Origin: Humidesulfovibrio sp.
Lineage (GTDB): Bacteria; Desulfobacterota; Desulfovibrionia; Desulfovibrionales; Desulfovibrionaceae
Direction: 5' to 3'
DNA length: 64,000 nucleotides
Assembly (NCBI RefSeq): GCF_031082295.1
Contig: NZ_JAVHLD010000004.1
Coordinates: forward strand, 17,492 to 81,491
Made by a program: the position numbers and the translations under genes. The notes beneath the pieces are model-generated. The model had not been told where the DNA came from, searched no databases, and saw only the letters and a list, made by a program, of their open reading frames with translations. This document shows, in pieces, positions 22,168 through 33,485 of this stretch. Numbering within the stretch: position 1 is the first letter of the stretch; each line of letters opens with the position of its first letter.

Positions 22168-23235
<1,068 letters not shown>

Positions 23236-23251: not shown

Positions 23252-24541
23252 TTGCACGACGTAACGGCATACATCCTGGCGGGCGGGTTTGGTACCCGCC
23301 TTCGCCAGGTCGTATTCGACCGCCCCAAGGTCATGGCCGAGGTTCTTGGCCGACCTTTTCTCTACCACATCCTGGATCGTCTGGCGCGGGTCGGCATTGC
23401 CAAGGCCGTTATCTGCACCGGCTACATGGCGGAGCAGCTTGAAACCGCCGTCGGCTCGAGCTACCGCGGCATGTCCCTGGCCTATTCGCGCGAGGAGACT
23501 CCGCTGGGCACTGGCGGGGCTCTTCGCCTGGCCTTTGAGCGATTTCCGGCACGACTGGCCCTGGCCATGAACGGCGATTCATTGGTAGAGGCGGATCTTG
23601 GCGCCTACATCAATTGGTACGCCGAGCACGATTTCTTGGCGGCACTTCTGCTCGTTGGCGTGGACGACACCTCTCGTTTCGGCCGTGTCGATATGGACGA
23701 GGAGGGCAGGGTTCAGGCGTTCCGTGAAAAGGGAATCGTCGGCCCGGGACTCATCAACGCCGGCGTTTATCTGCTCCGCCCGGAATCCCTTGAGAGCATC
23801 CAGCCTGGCGCCACGGCTTCCATCGAGACAGGCGTTTTCCCTGGGCTGGCAACAACAGGTCGGCTTGGTGCTCTTGCCGTCCAGGGACGATTCTTGGACA
23901 TTGGCACGCCAGAGTCCTACATCGCTGCTGGACGCTTCTTGCGTGAATCCCGGCTGGGCAATGAACAGAAGGGCAGGGCGGTGTTTCTTGACCGCGACGG
24001 GACTGTCATTGCCGAGCGACACTACCTTCATGATCCCGCCGGGGTTGAACTTTTGCCCGGTGCCGCTGAAGGCCTGCGCGCCATGCAGTCACTCGGACTG
24101 CGACTTGTGCTCGTGACCAACCAGTCAGGTGTTGGCCGGGGCTACTTCGGTCGAGATGCCGTTGAGCGCGTGCACGGGAGGTTGCTGGAGCTGCTGGAGC
24201 ATGAAGGTGTCGATATTGACGCCATCTATCTATGTCCCCATGCGCCGGACACCGTCTGCAATTGCCGCAAGCCAAAGCCGGGGCTTCTTGAAAGGGCGGC
24301 GACAGACCTCGACCTGGATCCTGAACGGAGCTTTGTCATTGGGGACAAGGCTTGCGATGTGGACCTCGGTCTGGTAATGAACGCGACCACGTTCCTCGTC
24401 ACCACGGGGCACGGAGCCGGGCAGGTCGCAGAGTGCGGCGGCCGGGCCCACCATGTTGTCGGCAGCCTTGAAGAAGCAGCCCGACTTGTCGAATCCATCC
24501 TGGCCGCCCCCAGCGCTCGTGGCGGCGTGGAGATCATATGA
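23252..24541 (+). CDS. Fused HddC-like sugar-1-phosphate nucleotidyltransferase and GmhB-like heptose-bisphosphate phosphatase (HAD-IIIA)
   Basis: N-terminus AYILAGGFGTRLRQVVFDRPKVMAEVLGRPFLYHIL; C-terminus AVFLDRDGTVIAERHYLHDP...LVTNQSGVGRGYF...CPHAPDTVCNCRKPKPGLL...VIGDKACDVDLG. Confidence 0.9.
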   Translation: MHDVTAYILAGGFGTRLRQVVFDRPKVMAEVLGRPFLYHILDRLARVGIAKAVICTGYMAEQLETAVGSSYRGMSLAYSREETPLGTGGALRLAFERFPARLALAMNGDSLVEADLGAYINWYAEHDFLAALLLVGVDDTSRFGRVDMDEEGRVQAFREKGIVGPGLINAGVYLLRPESLESIQPGATASIETGVFPGLATTGRLGALAVQGRFLDIGTPESYIAAGRFLRESRLGNEQKGRAVFLDRDGTVIAERHYLHDPAGVELLPGAAEGLRAMQSLGLRLVLVTNQSGVGRGYFGRDAVERVHGRLLELLEHEGVDIDAIYLCPHAPDTVCNCRKPKPGLLERAATDLDLDPERSFVIGDKACDVDLGLVMNATTFLVTTGHGAGQVAECGGRAHHVVGSLEEAARLVESILAAPSARGGVEII

Positions 24542-25611
24542 TCATCTGCAGAACACCTTTCAGGGTTTCCTTTTTTGGCGGCGGCACCGACTACCCCGGT
24601 TGGTATCGCAAGCATGGTGGGCAGGTTCTTTCCACGGCCATCGACAAATATTGCTACATCACCTTGCGCTATTTGCCGCCCTTCTTCGAGCACCGCATCC
24701 GCGCCGTGTACTCCAAGATCGAGCAGTGCCAGACCCTCGACGAGATCAAGCACCCGGCCATCCGAGAGACCCTGCGCTTCATGAATTTCGACCGCAGCGT
24801 GGAGATCCACCACGATGGCGACCTGCCCGCACGTAGCGGCATGGGCTCCAGTTCGTCCTTCACCGTGGGCCTGCTGCACGCGATCTACGCCTTGAAGGGC
24901 CAGATGCCGAGCAAGGAACAGCTGGCGCGAGAAAGCATCCAGATCGAGCAGGACTTCATCAAGGAGACCGTTGGCTCGCAGGACCAGTGCGCGGCGGCCT
25001 ACGGCGGTTTCAACCACATCACCTTCCACAAGGACGGCGAGATAGAGGTACGCCCGCTGACTTTGTCCGCCACGCGCCTGGGCGAGCTCTCAGACCACCT
25101 CATGCTTTTTTACACAGGCATCATGCGTACTGCATCAGATGTCGCACAGACATATGTGGAGAACCTTGGTGCTAAAGAGCGACTGCTCAAGCAGATGCAT
25201 TCCATGGTGGACGATGGCATAAGGATTGTTCAGAGTAACCGCTGCATATGCGGTTTTGGTGAGCTGCTGAACGATGCCTGGACCGCCAAACGCGAGCTTT
25301 CCACAAATATCTCAAACGGTGTTGTCGACGAATACTATGAGCGTGCACGAGAGAACGGCGCCATCGGCGGAAAGCTTATTGGAGCGGGTGGTGGCGGTTT
25401 TCTTCTGCTGTTCGTACCGCCTTCTGCCAAGACACGCGTACGCGAGGCCTTGAGCGAACTGCTGCACGTTCCCTTTCAGTTCAATCGCCACGGCAGCCAG
25501 ATCATCTTCTACGAGCCCCAGTCAGAAGACTACAGAATGGCTGAACGCGATCGCAAAAAACGCGACATCCAGGTCTTCCGAGAGTTGGGGGCCATCAAGG
25601 ACAAGCCATGA
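24538..25611 (+). CDS. GHMP kinase, D-glycero-alpha-D-manno-heptose-7-phosphate kinase-like (HddA)
   Basis: MIICRTPFRVSFFGGGTDYPGWYRKHGGQVLSTAIDKYCYI...DLPARSGMGSSSSFTVGLLHA...LIGAGGGGFLLLF; ATGA overlap with upstream gene. Confidence 0.88.
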   Translation: MIICRTPFRVSFFGGGTDYPGWYRKHGGQVLSTAIDKYCYITLRYLPPFFEHRIRAVYSKIEQCQTLDEIKHPAIRETLRFMNFDRSVEIHHDGDLPARSGMGSSSSFTVGLLHAIYALKGQMPSKEQLARESIQIEQDFIKETVGSQDQCAAAYGGFNHITFHKDGEIEVRPLTLSATRLGELSDHLMLFYTGIMRTASDVAQTYVENLGAKERLLKQMHSMVDDGIRIVQSNRCICGFGELLNDAWTAKRELSTNISNGVVDEYYERARENGAIGGKLIGAGGGGFLLLFVPPSAKTRVREALSELLHVPFQFNRHGSQIIFYEPQSEDYRMAERDRKKRDIQVFRELGAIKDKP

Positions 25612-26579
25612 GTCTGACAAAAGACGCCAAACGCGGGATGCTTCGCACCATGTTGCGCATCCGCCGCGTTCAGGAGCGTATCGAGTCCGAGTACCTGAAG
25701 GACGAGATGAAGACTCCGGTTCATTTGTATATTGGCCAGGAAGCCATCGCCACCGGCGTGTGCGCCACTCTTCGCAAAGACGACGCCATCAACAGCAACC
25801 ACCGTAGCCACGGCCACTACCTGGCCAAGGGCGGCGACCTCAAGGCCATGATGGCCGAGCTGTTCTGCCGCACCACGGGCTGTTCCAAGGGCTACGGCGG
25901 CTCCATGCATCTAGTGGACGTGGAGCACGGCAACCTGGGCACCTCTGCCATCGTTGGCGGCGGTATACCCATCGGCACGGGCCTTGGCCTTGCTTTCCAA
26001 ATGCAGAAGCTTGACCGTGTAAGCGTTGTATTCTTCGGCGACGGTGCGGCGGACGAGGGAACGCTTTATGAATCTCTCAATTTCGCCATGCTGAAGAACC
26101 TGCCCGTGGTCTACGTCATGGAGAACAACGGCTGGGCCGTGTGTTCGCCCACGGCCACCCGCCACTGCGGCGACAACGTCTTCCACAAGGGCGCGCAGGA
26201 CCGGCTCTTCTCGGCCAAGATCGACGGCAACGACCCCGAGGCGGTGTACGAGACCACGCTCAAGGCCGTAGAACGCGCTCGGCGGGGCGAAGGGCCATCC
26301 TTCATCGAGTGCACGACCTACCGCATCCTTGGCCATGCAGGTTGTGTGTCGCAGGACCCCAAAGGCTATCGCGATCCGGCTGAAATCGAGTCCTGGCGCG
26401 AGCGCTGCCCGGTGTGCGCCTATCAGTCGAAGCTCCAGGCCGAAGGCGTTGTCAATGCAAGCTTCCTGGCAGATGTCGAGGCCGAGATCGCCGCGGAAAT
26501 CGACGTGGCCTTTGATTTCGCCCGCCAGAGCCCGCTGCCCACGGCGGCTGACCTGCACAAATATCTCTTCTGCGAGTAA
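25608..26579 (+). CDS. TPP-dependent dehydrogenase E1 component, alpha subunit-like
   Basis: RRVQERIESEYL...HLYIGQEAIATGVCATLRKDD...NHRSHGHYLAKGGD...GDGAADEGTLYESLNFAMLKNLPVVYVMENN (TPP motif). Confidence 0.9.
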   Translation: MSLTKDAKRGMLRTMLRIRRVQERIESEYLKDEMKTPVHLYIGQEAIATGVCATLRKDDAINSNHRSHGHYLAKGGDLKAMMAELFCRTTGCSKGYGGSMHLVDVEHGNLGTSAIVGGGIPIGTGLGLAFQMQKLDRVSVVFFGDGAADEGTLYESLNFAMLKNLPVVYVMENNGWAVCSPTATRHCGDNVFHKGAQDRLFSAKIDGNDPEAVYETTLKAVERARRGEGPSFIECTTYRILGHAGCVSQDPKGYRDPAEIESWRERCPVCAYQSKLQAEGVVNASFLADVEAEIAAEIDVAFDFARQSPLPTAADLHKYLFCE

Positions 26580-26582
26580 GCC

Positions 26583-27638
26583 ATGCCCTGGTCACGCATA
26601 AGGCCCGATACCAACGAACCCGAATTCATGAGCGCCGCCGTGGACGGCGGTCTGCAAGGCCGCCGCATAAGCTACGCCGAGGCCACCAACGAGGCGCTCT
26701 CACAGGCCCTCAGCCTGGACCCTCGCGTTTTCGTCATGGGGCAGGGTGTGGATGACCCTTCCGGCATGTTCGGAGCAACCAAAAACCTGCACATGGCCTA
26801 TGGCCGCGAGCGCGTCTTCGACACGCCGCTGGCCGAGACGGCCCTGTCCGGCATTGCCGTGGGTGCGGCCTTGGGTGGCATGCGTCCCGTGTACTTCCAC
26901 AACCGCCCGGACTTCCTGCTCCTGGCCATGGACCAGCTGGTGAACCACGCCGCCAAGTGGTTCTACATGTTTGGCGGCGCTGCCAATGTGCCGCTGGTGT
27001 TCTGGGCTTGCGTGGGCCGTGGCTGGGGCTCCGCCGCACAACATTCCCAGGCCTTGCAGGGGCTGTTCATGCACGTGCCGGGCCTGAAGCTCGTCATGCC
27101 CTCCACCTGCTTTGATGCCAAGGGGCTCATGCTCGCCGCCATCGCGGACAAGAACCCTGTGCTCATCATTGACCACCGCATGAACTTCAAGCAGCGCGGC
27201 ATTGTTCCAGAAGAGCCCTACACAGTTCCCATCGGCAAGGGCGTCATCCGCCGCAAGGGGACCGACTGCACGGTGGTGGCCGTGTCGCACCTTGTGACCG
27301 ACGCCTTCATCGCCGCGCAGGAACTGGCGGGGGAGGGCATCGAGGCCGAGGTCATCGACCCGCGCACACTGCGCCCTCTGGACGAGGACCTGATCCTGGA
27401 GTCCGTGTCCCGCACGGGCAGGCTCGTCATCTGCGATACCGGCTGGAAAACCGGCGGCGTCACCGCCGAGATATCCGCCATGGTCGCGGAAAAAGGCTTC
27501 CAGCACCTCAAGGCACCCATAGCCCGCGTGACCAACCCGGACCTGCCCACCCCCGCTGGGTACACCTTGGAACAGGCCTACTACATCGGCAAGGACGACA
27601 TTCGCAAAGCCATCGTCCGGACAGTTCGCGGCCAATAG
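26583..27638 (+). CDS. TPP-dependent dehydrogenase E1 component, beta subunit-like
   Basis: RRISYAEATNEALSQALSLDPRVFVMGQGVDDPSGMFG...RVFDTPLAETALSGIAVGAALGGMRPVY...EAEVIDPRTLRPLDEDLI. Confidence 0.9.
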   Translation: MPWSRIRPDTNEPEFMSAAVDGGLQGRRISYAEATNEALSQALSLDPRVFVMGQGVDDPSGMFGATKNLHMAYGRERVFDTPLAETALSGIAVGAALGGMRPVYFHNRPDFLLLAMDQLVNHAAKWFYMFGGAANVPLVFWACVGRGWGSAAQHSQALQGLFMHVPGLKLVMPSTCFDAKGLMLAAIADKNPVLIIDHRMNFKQRGIVPEEPYTVPIGKGVIRRKGTDCTVVAVSHLVTDAFIAAQELAGEGIEAEVIDPRTLRPLDEDLILESVSRTGRLVICDTGWKTGGVTAEISAMVAEKGFQHLKAPIARVTNPDLPTPAGYTLEQAYYIGKDDIRKAIVRTVRGQ

Positions 27639-27640
27639 CA

Positions 27641-28567
27641 ATGAAACAGACGCCGAAGATCTTCGTCGCCGGGAGCGCCAAGGCCCTGGGGAGCGCCATT
27701 GTGCGCGCCTTTGCTGAGCAGGGCCTGACCAATGTCGTGGGAGCAGGCGCAGCCGAGCCTGATTTGCGCACACAGTCCGACGTGGACGTTCTTTTCGAGA
27801 CTGAGCGGCCTGACTGGGTGGTCTACGCCGCGGGCAAAGCCGGTGGCATCGGGCTGAATCGCCGCGCCCCGGCGGACCTTATCCTTGACAACCTGCTCTG
27901 CGCGACCCACGTGATCCATGCGGCCCAGCGCTTCGGCGCCAAGAAGCTCCTGTATCTCGCCAGTTCCTGCGTGTACCCCAAGGATGCGGCCCAGCCTATC
28001 CGCGAGGACAGCATGTATGCCTCACCCCTGGAGCCGACGAACCTGGCTTACGCGGTGAGCAAGCTGGCCGGCCTGGAGCTTTGCCGCGCCATGCGCCAGC
28101 AGCACGGGCTTGACTTCAACATCGCTGTGCCCACCAACTATTTCGGCCCCGGAGACGACTTCAGCCCCGAGAACTCCCACGTTGTGGGAGCGCTTATGGC
28201 GCGCATGCGCGAGGCCAAGGCCAGGGGCGACGAAGCCCTGTCCATCTGGGGGACAGGCAAGGCCCGGCGCGAGTTCCTGTACGTTGACGACGTGGCCGCC
28301 GCCGCCGTGTTCCTCATGCAGGGCCATAGCTGGGACGGGCCACTGAACATCGGCTCGGGGGTGGCTGTGTCCATCGCTGAACTCGCAGTCATGCTTCAGG
28401 AAATTTCCGGCTTTTCGGGCCGTCTGGACTATGATACGAGCAAGCCCGACGGCATGCCCGTCAAGGTGCTGGATTCCTCGCGCCTGGCTCAATTGGGCTG
28501 GTCGCCCAAGGTGGACTTTGCCGAAGGCCTGCGCCGCACCTACGACTGGTATCTCAACCAAAAATAG
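27641..28567 (+). CDS. GDP-L-fucose synthase-like NAD-dependent epimerase/reductase (WcaG family)
   Basis: KIFVAGSAKALGSAIVRAF; LASSCVYPKDAAQPI; AYAVSKLAGLELCRA; NSHVVGALMARMREA. Confidence 0.85.
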   Translation: MKQTPKIFVAGSAKALGSAIVRAFAEQGLTNVVGAGAAEPDLRTQSDVDVLFETERPDWVVYAAGKAGGIGLNRRAPADLILDNLLCATHVIHAAQRFGAKKLLYLASSCVYPKDAAQPIREDSMYASPLEPTNLAYAVSKLAGLELCRAMRQQHGLDFNIAVPTNYFGPGDDFSPENSHVVGALMARMREAKARGDEALSIWGTGKARREFLYVDDVAAAAVFLMQGHSWDGPLNIGSGVAVSIAELAVMLQEISGFSGRLDYDTSKPDGMPVKVLDSSRLAQLGWSPKVDFAEGLRRTYDWYLNQK

Positions 28568-28585: not shown

Positions 28586-29761
28586 ATGCAGTTCAAGTGG
28601 CCGCTGATGGAAGATAACGTCACCCGTGAGGATCTGGACGTTCTCATCACCTTTTTGCAGGGCATGCCCCGCCTGACACAGTCCGCCAACGTTCGCGCCC
28701 TTGAGACCGAATGGTCCGAGTGGGTTGGCGTGAAGCACAGCGTCTTTGTCAACTCCGGCGCCTCGGCCAACCTCATCACCATGGGTGCGCTGAAGCACCT
28801 GTACGGCGGGGGCGAGGTCATCGTGCCCACGCTGACCTGGGTCTCCGACATCGCCTCCGTGCTGCAGAACGGCTTCACGCCCGTGTTCGTGGACATCAAC
28901 CCCAAGAACCTGTGCATGGACGAGGACCAGGTCATCGCCAAGCTGAACGACAAGACCCGTGCGGTGTTCCTGACCTACGTGCAGGGCTTCAACGGCCTGT
29001 CCGACCGCTTGCTGGACGAGTTGAAGCGCCGCAACATCCCGCTGATCGAGGACGTCTGCGAGTCTCACGGGGCCACTTTCAAAAACAAGCGCCTGGGGTC
29101 CTTCGGCCTGGCATCAAACTTCTCCTTTTATTTCGCGCACCACATGAGCACCGTCGAGGGCGGCATGGTCTGCACCAACGACGACGCCTTCTATGACGCC
29201 ATCCGCATGTTCCGTTCCCACGGCATGGTGCGCGAGGCCGAGAGCGCCGACACCCGCGCGCGCTACGCCTCCGAGAACCCGGAACTTTCGCCGGACTTCA
29301 TCTTCGCCTTCCCGGCCTTCAACGTGCGCAGCACCGAAATCAACGCCGTGCTTGGCCGCAGCCAGCTCAAACGCCTCGACTCCTGCAACGACCGCCGCCG
29401 GGAGAACTTCGAGCTGTTCCTGAAGCTCATCGACCCGGGCAAGTACCGCACGGACTTCGACCTGGAGGGCAGCTGCAACTACGCCTTCAACCTGGTGCTG
29501 AACAAGCCCGACGAGGCACTGCGCGAGCGCCTGGAGACAAAGATGCGCGAGAACGGCATCGAGTTTCGCAGGGGCAGCGCGGGAGGCGGCAACCAGCTGC
29601 GCCAGCCCTACCTCAAGGGCATCGTGCCGGACGGGCATTACAAAAACTTCCCCGAGGTGGAGCACATCCACTTCTTCGGCTACTACATCGGCAATTACCC
29701 GACCCTGTCCGCCGAGCGCATCACGGAACTCTGCGACGTGCTCAACTCGGTGCAGGGATAG
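28586..29761 (+). CDS. DegT/DnrJ/EryC1/StrS-fold PLP protein, predicted 3-dehydratase (ColD/RfbH type)
   Basis: NSGASANLITMGAL; IEDVCESHGATFKNKRLGSFG; SNFSFYFAHHMSTVEGGMVCTND (His at the usual Lys position). Confidence 0.88.
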   Translation: MQFKWPLMEDNVTREDLDVLITFLQGMPRLTQSANVRALETEWSEWVGVKHSVFVNSGASANLITMGALKHLYGGGEVIVPTLTWVSDIASVLQNGFTPVFVDINPKNLCMDEDQVIAKLNDKTRAVFLTYVQGFNGLSDRLLDELKRRNIPLIEDVCESHGATFKNKRLGSFGLASNFSFYFAHHMSTVEGGMVCTNDDAFYDAIRMFRSHGMVREAESADTRARYASENPELSPDFIFAFPAFNVRSTEINAVLGRSQLKRLDSCNDRRRENFELFLKLIDPGKYRTDFDLEGSCNYAFNLVLNKPDEALRERLETKMRENGIEFRRGSAGGGNQLRQPYLKGIVPDGHYKNFPEVEHIHFFGYYIGNYPTLSAERITELCDVLNSVQG

Positions 29762-29772
29762 GGGAGGGGACC

Positions 29773-31254
29773 GTGGTGCCCACGCGCAGGCTCGACCTCC
29801 TGTTCATAAAGCCCGGCAGCCAGAAGCAGATCTACGGCAGCCTGTCGGACTATGACCTGACGGCCATCGAGCCGCCGCTGTGGGCCGCCATCCTGGGCGG
29901 ATACCTGCGCGGGCTGGGATACGGCGTGGAGATTCTCGACGCAGAGGCGGAAGGCATGTCCTGGGACCAGGTTGCCCAGGCCGCTGTTGACCGTGGCGCG
30001 CTGCTCACCGCAGTCATGGTCTCTGGCCACAACCCGTCGGCCTCCACCATGAACATGCTCGGCGCCGGGGCCATCAGCACGAAGATCAAGGAGCTTGCGC
30101 CGGAACTGGCCGTGTGCCTCACCGGTCTGCACGTCAGCGCCCTGCCGGAACGCTCCATCCGCGAGGAGATCGCCGACTTTGTCATCCAGGGCGAGGGCCT
30201 GCGCACCTTCCCGCCGCTGCTTGAGGCGCTGAAGGCCCAGGCGCCGGCGTTCAAGGGCATTCCCGGCCTGTGGTATCGCGAGGATGGGCACATTGTGCCC
30301 GGTTCCATGCCGGACATGTGGGCCGACCTTGACACCCTGCCCATGCCCGCCTGGGACCTGCTGCCCATGGAGCGCTACCGCGCCCACAACTGGCACTGCT
30401 TCGACGACGTGACCCGCCGCCAGCCTTACGCCACCCTCTACACAAGCCTGGGCTGCCCGTATCATTGCTCGTTCTGCTGCATCAACGCGCTCTTTGGCGA
30501 GCACCGTCTACGCACACGCGGTGTTGATTCGGTCATGGCTGAGATCGACTTTCTGGTGAATCGCTACGGAGTTCGCAACATCAAGATCATGGACGAGCTG
30601 TTTGCCGTGAATGAGAAGCGCGTGCTGGAACTTTGCGGCAAGATCGCGGAGCGCGGTTACGACCTGAACTTCTGGGCCTACGCTCGCGTGAACACCGTGA
30701 GCGAGCGCATGCTGGCCGCCATGAAGGCTGCTGGCGTCAACTGGATCGCCTACGGGTTCGAGTCCGGCAGCAAACGCGTCATCGAGGACGTGACCAAGGG
30801 CTACAAGCTCGACCAGGTGCTGCGCGTGGCCCAGATGACCTACGACCAGGGCCAGCACATCTGCGCCAATTTCATCTTCGGCCTGCCCGAGGACGATTAT
30901 GACTCCATGCAGGAAACCTTTGCGCTCATGCAGGAGATCAACGCCGAATGGGCCAACATCTATTCCGCCATGGCCTATCCTGGCTCAAAGCTCTATGATG
31001 ACGCCGTGGCAGCGGGAGCGCCGCTTCCGGCCACCTGGAACGGCTTTTCGCAGTACTCGGCCGATTGCCTGCCGCTGCCAACAAAGTACTTGTCAGGCGG
31101 CCAGGTCTTGTCATTTCGCGACTACGCCTTCGACGCCTATTACAAGAACCCACGCTACCTAGCCATGATCCGCGCCAAATTCGGTGAAGAGACCATGCGC
31201 CACATTCAGCTGATGGCCCAAAAGTCATTGGACAGATATAACGCCGTCATATAA
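29773..31254 (+). CDS. B12-binding-domain radical SAM protein
   Basis: N-terminal Rossmann-like domain (YGVEILDAEAEGMSW); TSLGCPYHCSFCC (CxxxCxxC); IAYGFESGSKRVIEDVTKG. Confidence 0.88.
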   Translation: MVPTRRLDLLFIKPGSQKQIYGSLSDYDLTAIEPPLWAAILGGYLRGLGYGVEILDAEAEGMSWDQVAQAAVDRGALLTAVMVSGHNPSASTMNMLGAGAISTKIKELAPELAVCLTGLHVSALPERSIREEIADFVIQGEGLRTFPPLLEALKAQAPAFKGIPGLWYREDGHIVPGSMPDMWADLDTLPMPAWDLLPMERYRAHNWHCFDDVTRRQPYATLYTSLGCPYHCSFCCINALFGEHRLRTRGVDSVMAEIDFLVNRYGVRNIKIMDELFAVNEKRVLELCGKIAERGYDLNFWAYARVNTVSERMLAAMKAAGVNWIAYGFESGSKRVIEDVTKGYKLDQVLRVAQMTYDQGQHICANFIFGLPEDDYDSMQETFALMQEINAEWANIYSAMAYPGSKLYDDAVAAGAPLPATWNGFSQYSADCLPLPTKYLSGGQVLSFRDYAFDAYYKNPRYLAMIRAKFGEETMRHIQLMAQKSLDRYNAVI

Positions 31255-31297: not shown

Positions 31298-32002
31298 ATG
31301 AAGACGACGCTTCTGGTCATGACGCTCAATGAAATCGATGGAATGAAAGCCATCATGCCACAGGTCAACCGCGACTGGGTTGACCAGATCATCGTTGTCG
31401 ACGGCGGATCAAAGGACGGCACCATCGAGTGGTCGCGTGAACAGGGCTACGAGGTCTATGTGCAGAAGAAGCGCGGCTTTCGCCACGCCTACGAGGAAGT
31501 ATTGCCCCTGGTCAAGGGGGATGTGCTGCTGACCTTCAGCCCGGACGGCAACTCCGTTCCAGAACTCATCCCGGACATTTTGAACAAGATGCGCGAAGGC
31601 TACGACATGGTCATCGCCTCTCGCTACCTCGGCCCGGCCAAGAGTGAGGACGACGATCCCATTACGGCCTTTGGCAACTGGCTGTTCACCAAGACCATCA
31701 ATGTGCTGCACGGCGGTCACTATACCGACGCCATGGTCATCTACCGCGCCTACAAGAAGCAGTTGATATATGATCTTGAACTGTTGGATGAGAGAGCCTA
31801 CCGCACGCCGGAGAAGCTCTTCTTCACCAAGATCAGCTGGGAGCCGCTCTTGTCGTGCCGTGCGGCCATACGCAAGCTTAAGATCGCTGAGATTCCCGGC
31901 GACGAGCCAGCGCGTATCGGCGGGGAGCGTAAACTGCAGATCATCCGCTGGGGGTCGGCCTACTACTTCCAATTCATCAGGGACTGGCTGTTCTGGAAGT
32001 AG
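31298..32002 (+). CDS. Family 2 glycosyltransferase
   Basis: TTLLVMTLNEIDGMKAIMPQVNRDWVDQIIVVDGGSKDGTIEWSREQGYEVYVQ...YDMVIASRYLG. Confidence 0.88.
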   Translation: MKTTLLVMTLNEIDGMKAIMPQVNRDWVDQIIVVDGGSKDGTIEWSREQGYEVYVQKKRGFRHAYEEVLPLVKGDVLLTFSPDGNSVPELIPDILNKMREGYDMVIASRYLGPAKSEDDDPITAFGNWLFTKTINVLHGGHYTDAMVIYRAYKKQLIYDLELLDERAYRTPEKLFFTKISWEPLLSCRAAIRKLKIAEIPGDEPARIGGERKLQIIRWGSAYYFQFIRDWLFWK

Positions 32003-32063: not shown

Positions 32064-33485
32064 CTAGCAATCGAAACCGAGACCTCGCTTGATGCGCAGC
32101 TTGATGGCTTCCAGGGCCGGGGCTGCAATGGCCCTGATACCGTGCCGCTTGAGCATCGGGATAAAGCGCCAATAGCACGAGTAGATGCGGCTTAAGCCCA
32201 CAGTCTGCAACTTCACCAATTCTTCCGGGCTGAGCCCGTTCACCGACATGACGGCCGATCCATAGCGCTGGTAGTGGGAATAGTCGGTCTCCAGAAGCTT
32301 GAGGCCGTGCTGTCCTGCTTCCGCCATGCGGCGCATTTCCGTGCCGGGGTAGGGCATTGCGATGCCGTAGGTGGCGTGGTGGATATCTTTGGCGTGCTGC
32401 AAAAACGTAATGGTGCGGTCGATACTTTCAAGCGTCTCACCAGGAAGGCCAAGCATCACAGAGTTGATGGTCTCTATGCCTAGCTTGTTGTTAAGCTTGT
32501 TGGATTCCACATAGCTTTCAAGCGGAACTTCCTTTCGGATAACCTTGCGTATCTCTGTGTCCGCCGTCTCCAGCCCAAAGCTGATGCGTATAAGTCCGCA
32601 TTTTTTAAGCCTGCGCACCAAGGGCTCGTCCCACAGGTTGGCACGGGTGCTGCCCTCAAAAGTAAAGCGTAGCTCTCTGCGTTCAATCTCGTCCAGCAAT
32701 TCTATGATGTACTTCCGGTCCAGGGTCAAGGTATCGTCAATAAAGAAGATGTGTTCAAACCCCATGGTGTTGATGAGCATGTCGAGTTCTTCAATGACAT
32801 GCTGAACACTACGTCGACGCACTTTCTTGCCGAAAAGATCGCTTGCGCAGAACACGCAACTGAAAGGGCAACCACGGCTCATCTGAACCGTGGTGAACCG
32901 TTTGCGACCGTGGAGCGTGCCCAGTTTGTAGATATGGTTGGGCAAGAGTTCGCGTGCAGGAATTGGCGCAAGATCGAGATCATCAAGCTTTGGCGCTTCG
33001 CAGTTGTAGATTGTCTTTCCATCCTTGCGCGACATGATGCCAGGAGTATCAGGGTTGCGATCGCCTGCAGCAAACTTTTGCAGAAAATCGCCGAAAGTCA
33101 GCTCGCACTCGCCCACTACAAGATAGTCAAAACAGTCCCGGAAGGCATTTTCGCGTTCAATGCTGGCATGGACTCCGCCAAAAATGATCGGTTTTCCAAG
33201 AGCCTTACGCAGCTCTTGCGCCACCTGGGTGGCGGTATGAAAAAAGGGCGTTGTGGCCGTCAAACCAATGAGATCCGGCTGGAAGGCTGCTGTACGTTCA
33301 ATAATCTCATGGACATTAAGGAGTTCTGCCTGTGCGTCGATGAGCTGTACCTCCCAGCCGTTCTGCTGGGCAATGGCCGCGACAATGGCCAGATTGATCG
33401 GAGGAAAGGCGGAGGCCTTCTGTGCAACCTGTTTGTACTTTCCAAAAGCTGTGCACCAAGCAGGAAAAATAAGGGTCAGTTTCAT
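32064..33485 (-). CDS. B12-binding-domain radical SAM protein
   Basis: FPPINLAIVAAIAQQNGWEVQLIDAQAELLN...MSRGCPFSCVFCASDLFGKKVRRRSVQHVIEEL (CxxxCxxC)...RISFGLETADTEIRKVI. Confidence 0.88.
   Translation of the reverse strand: MKLTLIFPAWCTAFGKYKQVAQKASAFPPINLAIVAAIAQQNGWEVQLIDAQAELLNVHEIIERTAAFQPDLIGLTATTPFFHTATQVAQELRKALGKPIIFGGVHASIERENAFRDCFDYLVVGECELTFGDFLQKFAAGDRNPDTPGIMSRKDGKTIYNCEAPKLDDLDLAPIPARELLPNHIYKLGTLHGRKRFTTVQMSRGCPFSCVFCASDLFGKKVRRRSVQHVIEELDMLINTMGFEHIFFIDDTLTLDRKYIIELLDEIERRELRFTFEGSTRANLWDEPLVRRLKKCGLIRISFGLETADTEIRKVIRKEVPLESYVESNKLNNKLGIETINSVMLGLPGETLESIDRTITFLQHAKDIHHATYGIAMPYPGTEMRRMAEAGQHGLKLLETDYSHYQRYGSAVMSVNGLSPEELVKLQTVGLSRIYSCYWRFIPMLKRHGIRAIAAPALEAIKLRIKRGLGFDC

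Follow-up and report, generated by a model that had tools for sequence, protein, structure and literature searches.

Several described enzymes and pathways bear on the locus treated here. ColD, the GDP-4-keto-6-deoxy-D-mannose 3-dehydratase (PDB 2gms), has a DegT fold in which histidine replaces the usual lysine, and it has no Fe-S cluster. RfbH/E1, the CDP-4-keto-6-deoxyglucose 3-dehydrase, shares the fold and the catalytic histidine; E1 contains a [2Fe-2S] cluster and depends on a reductase. In C. jejuni, Cj1427 forms GDP-D-glycero-4-keto-heptose and L-2-hydroxyglutarate. Combined in vitro with the HS:5 C3-dehydratase, it yields GDP-D-glycero-3-deoxy-4-keto-heptose, a reaction put forward as a way to reach new compounds (PMC10680097).

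Addition of two-carbon units to keto sugars by ThDP enzymes is also described. YerE, of the decarboxylase family, adds C2 to CDP-3,6-dideoxy-4-keto-glucose in the formation of yersiniose; for aldgarose, paulomycose and kibdelomycin the enzymes are PDH-like, and split transketolases have been proposed for miharamycin (PMC12247030; PMC4753412). Keto-sugar branching by PDH-like and split transketolase enzymes is either shown or proposed (PMC12247030). Among B12-type radical-SAM enzymes, OxsB and HpnJ catalyse ring formation or rearrangement (PMC13142503).

The window, a 64,000-nucleotide stretch of a Humidesulfovibrio genome, carries at positions 28586-29761 (+) a gene whose translated sequence supports its assignment as a ColD-type PMP/PLP sugar 3-dehydratase. 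The reaction of the predicted vitamin-B6 enzyme is very probably the loss of the 3-hydroxyl of an activated seven-carbon sugar. Its gene lies within a set that is conserved over many bacterial phyla and appears to direct the synthesis of an uncharacterised surface sugar with a carbon branch.

The catalytic histidine and kinship with ColD

The open reading frame is genuine: it encodes 391 amino acids, starts with ATG and has no internal stops, and the opposite strand of the same positions holds nothing other than overlapping chance open reading frames and a stop-interrupted frame. The protein is of the same length as ColD, in agreement with the initial annotation, which had taken the length to suit that enzyme. 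Its motif is FSFYFAHHMSTVEGG (SFYFA-H-HMSTVEGG), with His185 at the PLP lysine site, and it falls in the active-site segment NFSFYFAHHMSTVE, residues 178-191, encoded at 29117-29158 (+). In a phmmer alignment H185, the first histidine of the pair, is matched to H188 of ColD. This column can be seen directly, as the deposited ColD variants H188N (3b8x), H188K (2r0t) and S187N/H188K (3gr9) differ from wild type precisely there.

The histidine pair is not a chance feature, since it is kept in all 82 relatives detected by tblastn (mostly 62-93% identical and spread over many phyla) and in 12 of 12 loci from later genome searches, where identity falls as low as 54%. The scan for relatives covered one genome per species, and 80 of the 155 loci with relatives were kept. 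Lys-type DegT paralogues of the same loci and genomes have a lysine in the H185 column. In a family alignment of 73 rows no lysine reaches 90% conservation, let alone invariance, at any position, and no other lysine can therefore be a family-wide imine residue. The initial annotation's description of a DegT-fold protein with histidine in place of the PLP lysine is confirmed, and its counterexample, a lysine at the imine position, was looked for and not found.

These data also bear on the possibility that the protein is an aminotransferase, or an altered DegT protein that no longer dehydrates. The DegT family at large does consist mostly of aminotransferases, and NCBIfam offers no equivalog for the protein. 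However, an internal aldimine would lack any conserved lysine, the histidine is retained in all relatives examined, and the H220K change in E1 gave merely non-catalytic transamination (PMC8987622). Membership among the DegT aminotransferases is rejected on the residue at the Schiff-base position, and this alternative as a whole is highly improbable.

Assignment to RfbH/E1 is likewise rejected. The protein has neither a CxxC nor a four-Cys Fe-S motif, and no obvious one of the latter kind had been noted at first inspection; C158 is the sole invariant residue among its six cysteines. The RfbH model scores 172 bits against a cut-off of 423.

Similarity to ColD is seen by sequence, fold and phylogeny. 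The protein matches PF01041 with 212 bits, and its best PDB matches by sequence are four ColD sequences (E 1.4e-47 to 7e-46, 31% identity). An AlphaFold2 model has a mean pLDDT of 93, with the active-site loop, residues 181-190, being of low confidence (pLDDT about 60); the top Foldseek matches of the model in the PDB are all ColD, at a TM score of 0.88. Residues of the cofactor region are shared: D159, W88, S183, N248, R250 and E329 of ColD correspond to D156, W85, S180, N246, R248 and E326, and S187 of ColD is replaced by A184. In a tree of 33 sequences, which has long branches and includes one ColD only, the family groups with ColD (UFBoot 100), and RfbH/E1 and the Lys-type aminotransferases fall on the other side. 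The earlier reading as a ColD-like sugar 3-dehydratase is therefore supported, and alignment places H185 at H188 of ColD and in the lysine column of the aminotransferases. The low identity and the separate clade distinguish the protein from ColD itself.

Operon context and the predicted substrate

Six genes of the same direction precede the dehydratase gene, and two follow it. The first, at 22297-23235 (+), encodes an SDR of the Cj1427 type, a relative of the GDP-D-glycero-D-manno-heptose C4-dehydrogenase with 67% identity over 311 amino acids to PDB 6vo6/6vo8 (E 2e-142). It is followed at 23252-24541 (+) by a fusion of an HddC-type nucleotidyltransferase (NCBIfam HddC, 123 bits) with a GmhB-type heptose-1,7-bisphosphate phosphatase (159 bits); the two matches lie on separate halves of the protein, both below the equivalog cut-offs. 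This fusion is a feature of the source genus, and in most other loci the two genes are separate. An HddA-type GHMP kinase (heptose 7-phosphate 1-kinase) is encoded at 24538-25611 (+). Its top PDB match, 4n3o (E 6e-38), is a putative D-glycero-D-manno-heptose 7-phosphate kinase, and its HddA match is also below the NCBIfam equivalog cut-off. A GmhA gene is found elsewhere in the genome, at 195 bits and just under the cut-off.

Two genes for a ThDP enzyme come next, at 25608-26579 (+) and 26583-27638 (+), and then, at 27641-28567 (+), an SDR of the GDP-fucose-synthase family (Fcl), a predicted C4/ketone reductase or epimerase (PDB 8du0/7ll6, E 2e-86). Downstream of the dehydratase gene, a B12-binding-domain radical-SAM protein is encoded at 29773-31254 (+) (PF04055 and PF02310). 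Its best NCBIfam match is HpnJ, at 163 bits against a cut-off of 578, and AprD4 is the nearest solved structure (E 4e-21). A family-2 glycosyltransferase at 31298-32002 (+) (PF00535) is the probable user of the sugar; it follows the module in five of the six congeners with enough sequence and in several other loci. Gene order is identical in those cluster-bearing congeners for which enough sequence is available. A second B12-binding radical-SAM gene with BchE/HpnJ-like scores, at 32064-33485 (-), faces the operon from downstream and is retained in one congener only of those examined. No plasmid copies of the module were found.

Since enzymes of GDP-heptose synthesis and a C4-dehydrogenase of the Cj1427 type are encoded in the operon, the substrate is probably GDP-4-keto-D-glycero-heptose rather than GDP-4-keto-6-deoxy-mannose. 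With the latter substrate the protein would be a classical ColD in a pathway like that of GDP-colitose, the Fcl-type protein acting as ColC. ColD is indeed the nearest solved enzyme, an Fcl-family SDR adjoins, and gmd is present in the genome; but gmd lies on a different contig, the genes conserved beside the dehydratase gene encode a heptose kinase and a heptose C4-dehydrogenase, and colitose synthesis calls for neither a ThDP nor a radical-SAM enzyme. A ColD specific to the colitose pathway is thus improbable. In this the protein differs from ColD: its partner genes suggest that the substrate is a D-glycero-heptose and that a branching step is involved.

The early genes resemble the Cj1427 heptose pathway of C. 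jejuni in HddA, HddC, GmhB and the C4-dehydrogenase. In C. jejuni HS:2, in contrast, an epimerase and a reductase come next rather than dehydration and C-branching. The HS:5 C3-dehydratase is a further parallel, being a PLP/glutamate enzyme that accepts a GDP-4-keto-heptose. It differs in that it is 62-67% identical to ColD-type enzymes, its natural substrate is a 6-deoxy sugar, no ThDP partner is described for it, and its use on the Cj1427 product is an in vitro combination. On sequence comparison, the genomes with the module appear to encode the combination of a Cj1427-type enzyme and a C3-dehydratase naturally.

The ThDP enzymes and conservation of the gene set

The two ThDP genes encode subunits like PDH E1 alpha (TIGR03182, 313 bits) and E1 beta (NF006667, 305 bits). 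Alignment to human PDH E1 shows an intact GDG...NN ThDP motif in the alpha subunit, and the catalytic Glu region is conserved in the beta subunit together with a QHSQ motif. No E2 (PF00198) was found in the source genome, which is 99.99% complete, nor in any of 12 high-quality genomes (G000 included); the same search detected PF00198 in 10 of 14 control genomes. As no E2 was found in the 12 genomes, this is an E1 without a PDH complex, and a role in such a complex is rejected. ThDP-binding and catalytic residues are present and no E2 partner was found, as expected of sugar-branching ThDP enzymes. A further E1 alpha gene, 48-49% identical, occurs in some congeners (G010:C16:75420, G009:C8:5272 and G002:C13:60814), and in their genomes too no E2 gene was found.

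Per-family profiles were run against the six frames of the loci, complete loci (n = 44) being those in which the dehydratase gene has 6 kb or more of sequence to either side. A ThDP enzyme is present in every complete locus (44/44), HddA in 43/44, the radical-SAM protein in 41/44, the Cj1427-type SDR in 40/44, the nucleotidyltransferase in 39/44 and the Fcl-type SDR in 30/44. GmhA and an L-2-hydroxyglutarate oxidase are each found in 8/44 and GmhB in 7/44. The oxidase scores 555 bits against a cut-off of 299 and accompanies the module at L061:3302-4501 and in L045, L051, L053, L066, L070, L080, L082, L083, L093 and L095. These genes fit the by-product of a 2-oxoglutarate-dependent Cj1427-type C4-dehydrogenase.

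The ThDP enzyme differs in class between loci. Over 81 loci there are 41 split transketolases, 25 PDH-type E1 enzymes and 11 short E1 pairs, two loci being counted twice; six of the 81 show no ThDP profile match. Four of these (L024, L035, L061 and L068) start within 2.3 kb of a contig end on the upstream side. The contig-limited L087, from a MAG labelled Chloroflexi, has a 610-amino-acid ThDP protein of the acetolactate-synthase type (L087:8120-9952), its gene lying between the Fcl-type and ColD-like genes. L052, with no ThDP gene in its available flanks, is a real exception there. With the exception of L138, later loci from independent genome samples also encode a ThDP enzyme next to the dehydratase; for L138/L145 the nearest ThDP gene was found about 18 kb off. 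In one congener (G006, locus L016) a split transketolase stands precisely where the others have E1 alpha/beta, in the same operon. This filling of one slot by different enzyme families argues for carboligation as the shared role.

Transketolases of the loci retain D155, N185, E411, F434 and H473, and most have lost S385, H461, R520 and D469. By their positions in E. coli TktA, we take the first five to belong to the ThDP site, S385, H461 and R520 to bind the phosphate of the sugar donor, and D469 to contact the acceptor. With the ThDP site kept and the other residues mostly lost, they are unlikely to be ordinary transketolases. This bears on a further alternative, in which a 3-deoxy-heptose is formed with no carbon branch: ColD-type dehydration would be followed by C4 reduction by the Fcl-type SDR only, as in C. 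jejuni HS:5, and the ThDP enzyme would supply a precursor such as sedoheptulose 7-phosphate, or act elsewhere. A C3-dehydratase and a C4-reductase do make the 3,6-dideoxy-heptoses of C. jejuni (PMC10440746), Fcl-type genes are common in the complete loci, and sedoheptulose 7-phosphate could come from a transketolase. Yet the ThDP enzymes are steadier than the Fcl-type SDR, sedoheptulose 7-phosphate is beyond PDH-type and AHAS-type enzymes, and its supply by the split transketolases is unlikely in view of the sugar-phosphate-binding residues that they have lost. The unbranched product is considered unlikely, if the most serious of the competing readings.

Distribution of the ColD-like gene is patchy: it was seen in 11 genomes out of 399 sampled from one order and in 2 out of 385 from one class, and each count includes the starting genome. 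Methylomonas and Nitrosospira are among its cultivated carriers. Divergent versions (54-56% identity) with weakly matching E1-like neighbours occur in L140, L142 and L143, from genomes of 1.5-1.7 Mb in a later-sampled order. The split-transketolase form of the module is present in an alphaproteobacterial genome of 8.0 Mb (G821, locus L131). A link of this copy to bradyrhizose cannot be claimed: primers for ORS285 gdh and ORS278 rfaL (PMC4743980) gave no convincing match in about 126 kb around the module, and its SDR does not contain the primer-encoded peptides.

A predicted route to branched 3-deoxy-heptoses

The reading that we favour, and hold to be reasonably probable, is that of a ColD-type GDP-4-keto-heptose 3-dehydratase that feeds a ThDP-dependent C2 branching at C4, with SDR and radical-SAM steps following and a surface glycan as the destination. 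His185 would serve as acid/base instead of lysine, the cofactor never being tethered. L-glutamate would convert PLP to PMP, and PMP would condense with the 4-keto sugar to a ketimine; the hydroxyl at C3 would be expelled and hydrolysis would free the 3-deoxy-4-keto sugar. The 2-oxoglutarate that the ColD reaction releases from glutamate is also the oxidant of the C4-dehydrogenase. Next, the two-subunit ThDP enzyme encoded nearby would take GDP-3-deoxy-4-keto-heptose as its ketone acceptor and place an acetyl group (C2) on C4, giving a nine-carbon, C4-branched GDP-sugar. This product may pass through the SDR and radical-SAM steps before transfer to a surface glycan.

We infer the GDP-heptose steps, C4 oxidation and 3-dehydration from the named relatives. 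Gene association and precedent are what suggest the radical step and the addition of C2 at C4. The two-carbon donor could be pyruvate for the E1 and AHAS types or a ketol donor for the transketolase type; as the donor may vary with the ThDP class, the branch may differ between loci. The frequency of the radical-SAM protein in the complete loci suggests further carbon chemistry. In yersiniose (YerE) and in paulomycose and aldgarose (PDH-like), a ThDP enzyme similarly adds C2 to a keto deoxysugar, and for yersiniose the acceptor is likewise a 3-deoxy-4-keto sugar. Those systems differ in that yersiniose is built on a CDP-hexose and the antibiotics on other hexoses, whereas a GDP-heptose is predicted here and several ThDP families occupy one slot.

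A more specific product has been considered, namely a carbocyclic C9 sugar of the type of caryose (4,8-cyclo-3,9-dideoxy-nonose), which is known from the LPS of Pseudomonas/Burkholderia caryophylli. C1 to C7 would come from the heptose and the 3-deoxy position from ColD-type dehydration; acetyl transfer by the ThDP enzyme would bring in the C9 methyl and form the C4-C8 bond, and ring closure between C7 and C8 would fall to the B12-type radical-SAM enzyme. This bond-by-bond match is conjectural and the assignment is doubtful; if true, it would explain every core gene of the conserved set.

Judged against the open-access literature, the module is provisionally new. From it a route to C-branched 3-deoxy-heptoses can be predicted that would be widespread among bacteria; its intermediate, GDP-D-glycero-3-deoxy-4-keto-heptose, is reported in PMC10680097 as an in vitro product only. 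According to a 2025 review, all known candidates for ketone-accepting transketolases come from Streptomyces, and none has been characterised in vitro. The several ThDP families found in one slot provide many such candidates outside that genus, and with the module it becomes possible to test directly how unusual LPS sugars, branched or carbocyclic, are made.
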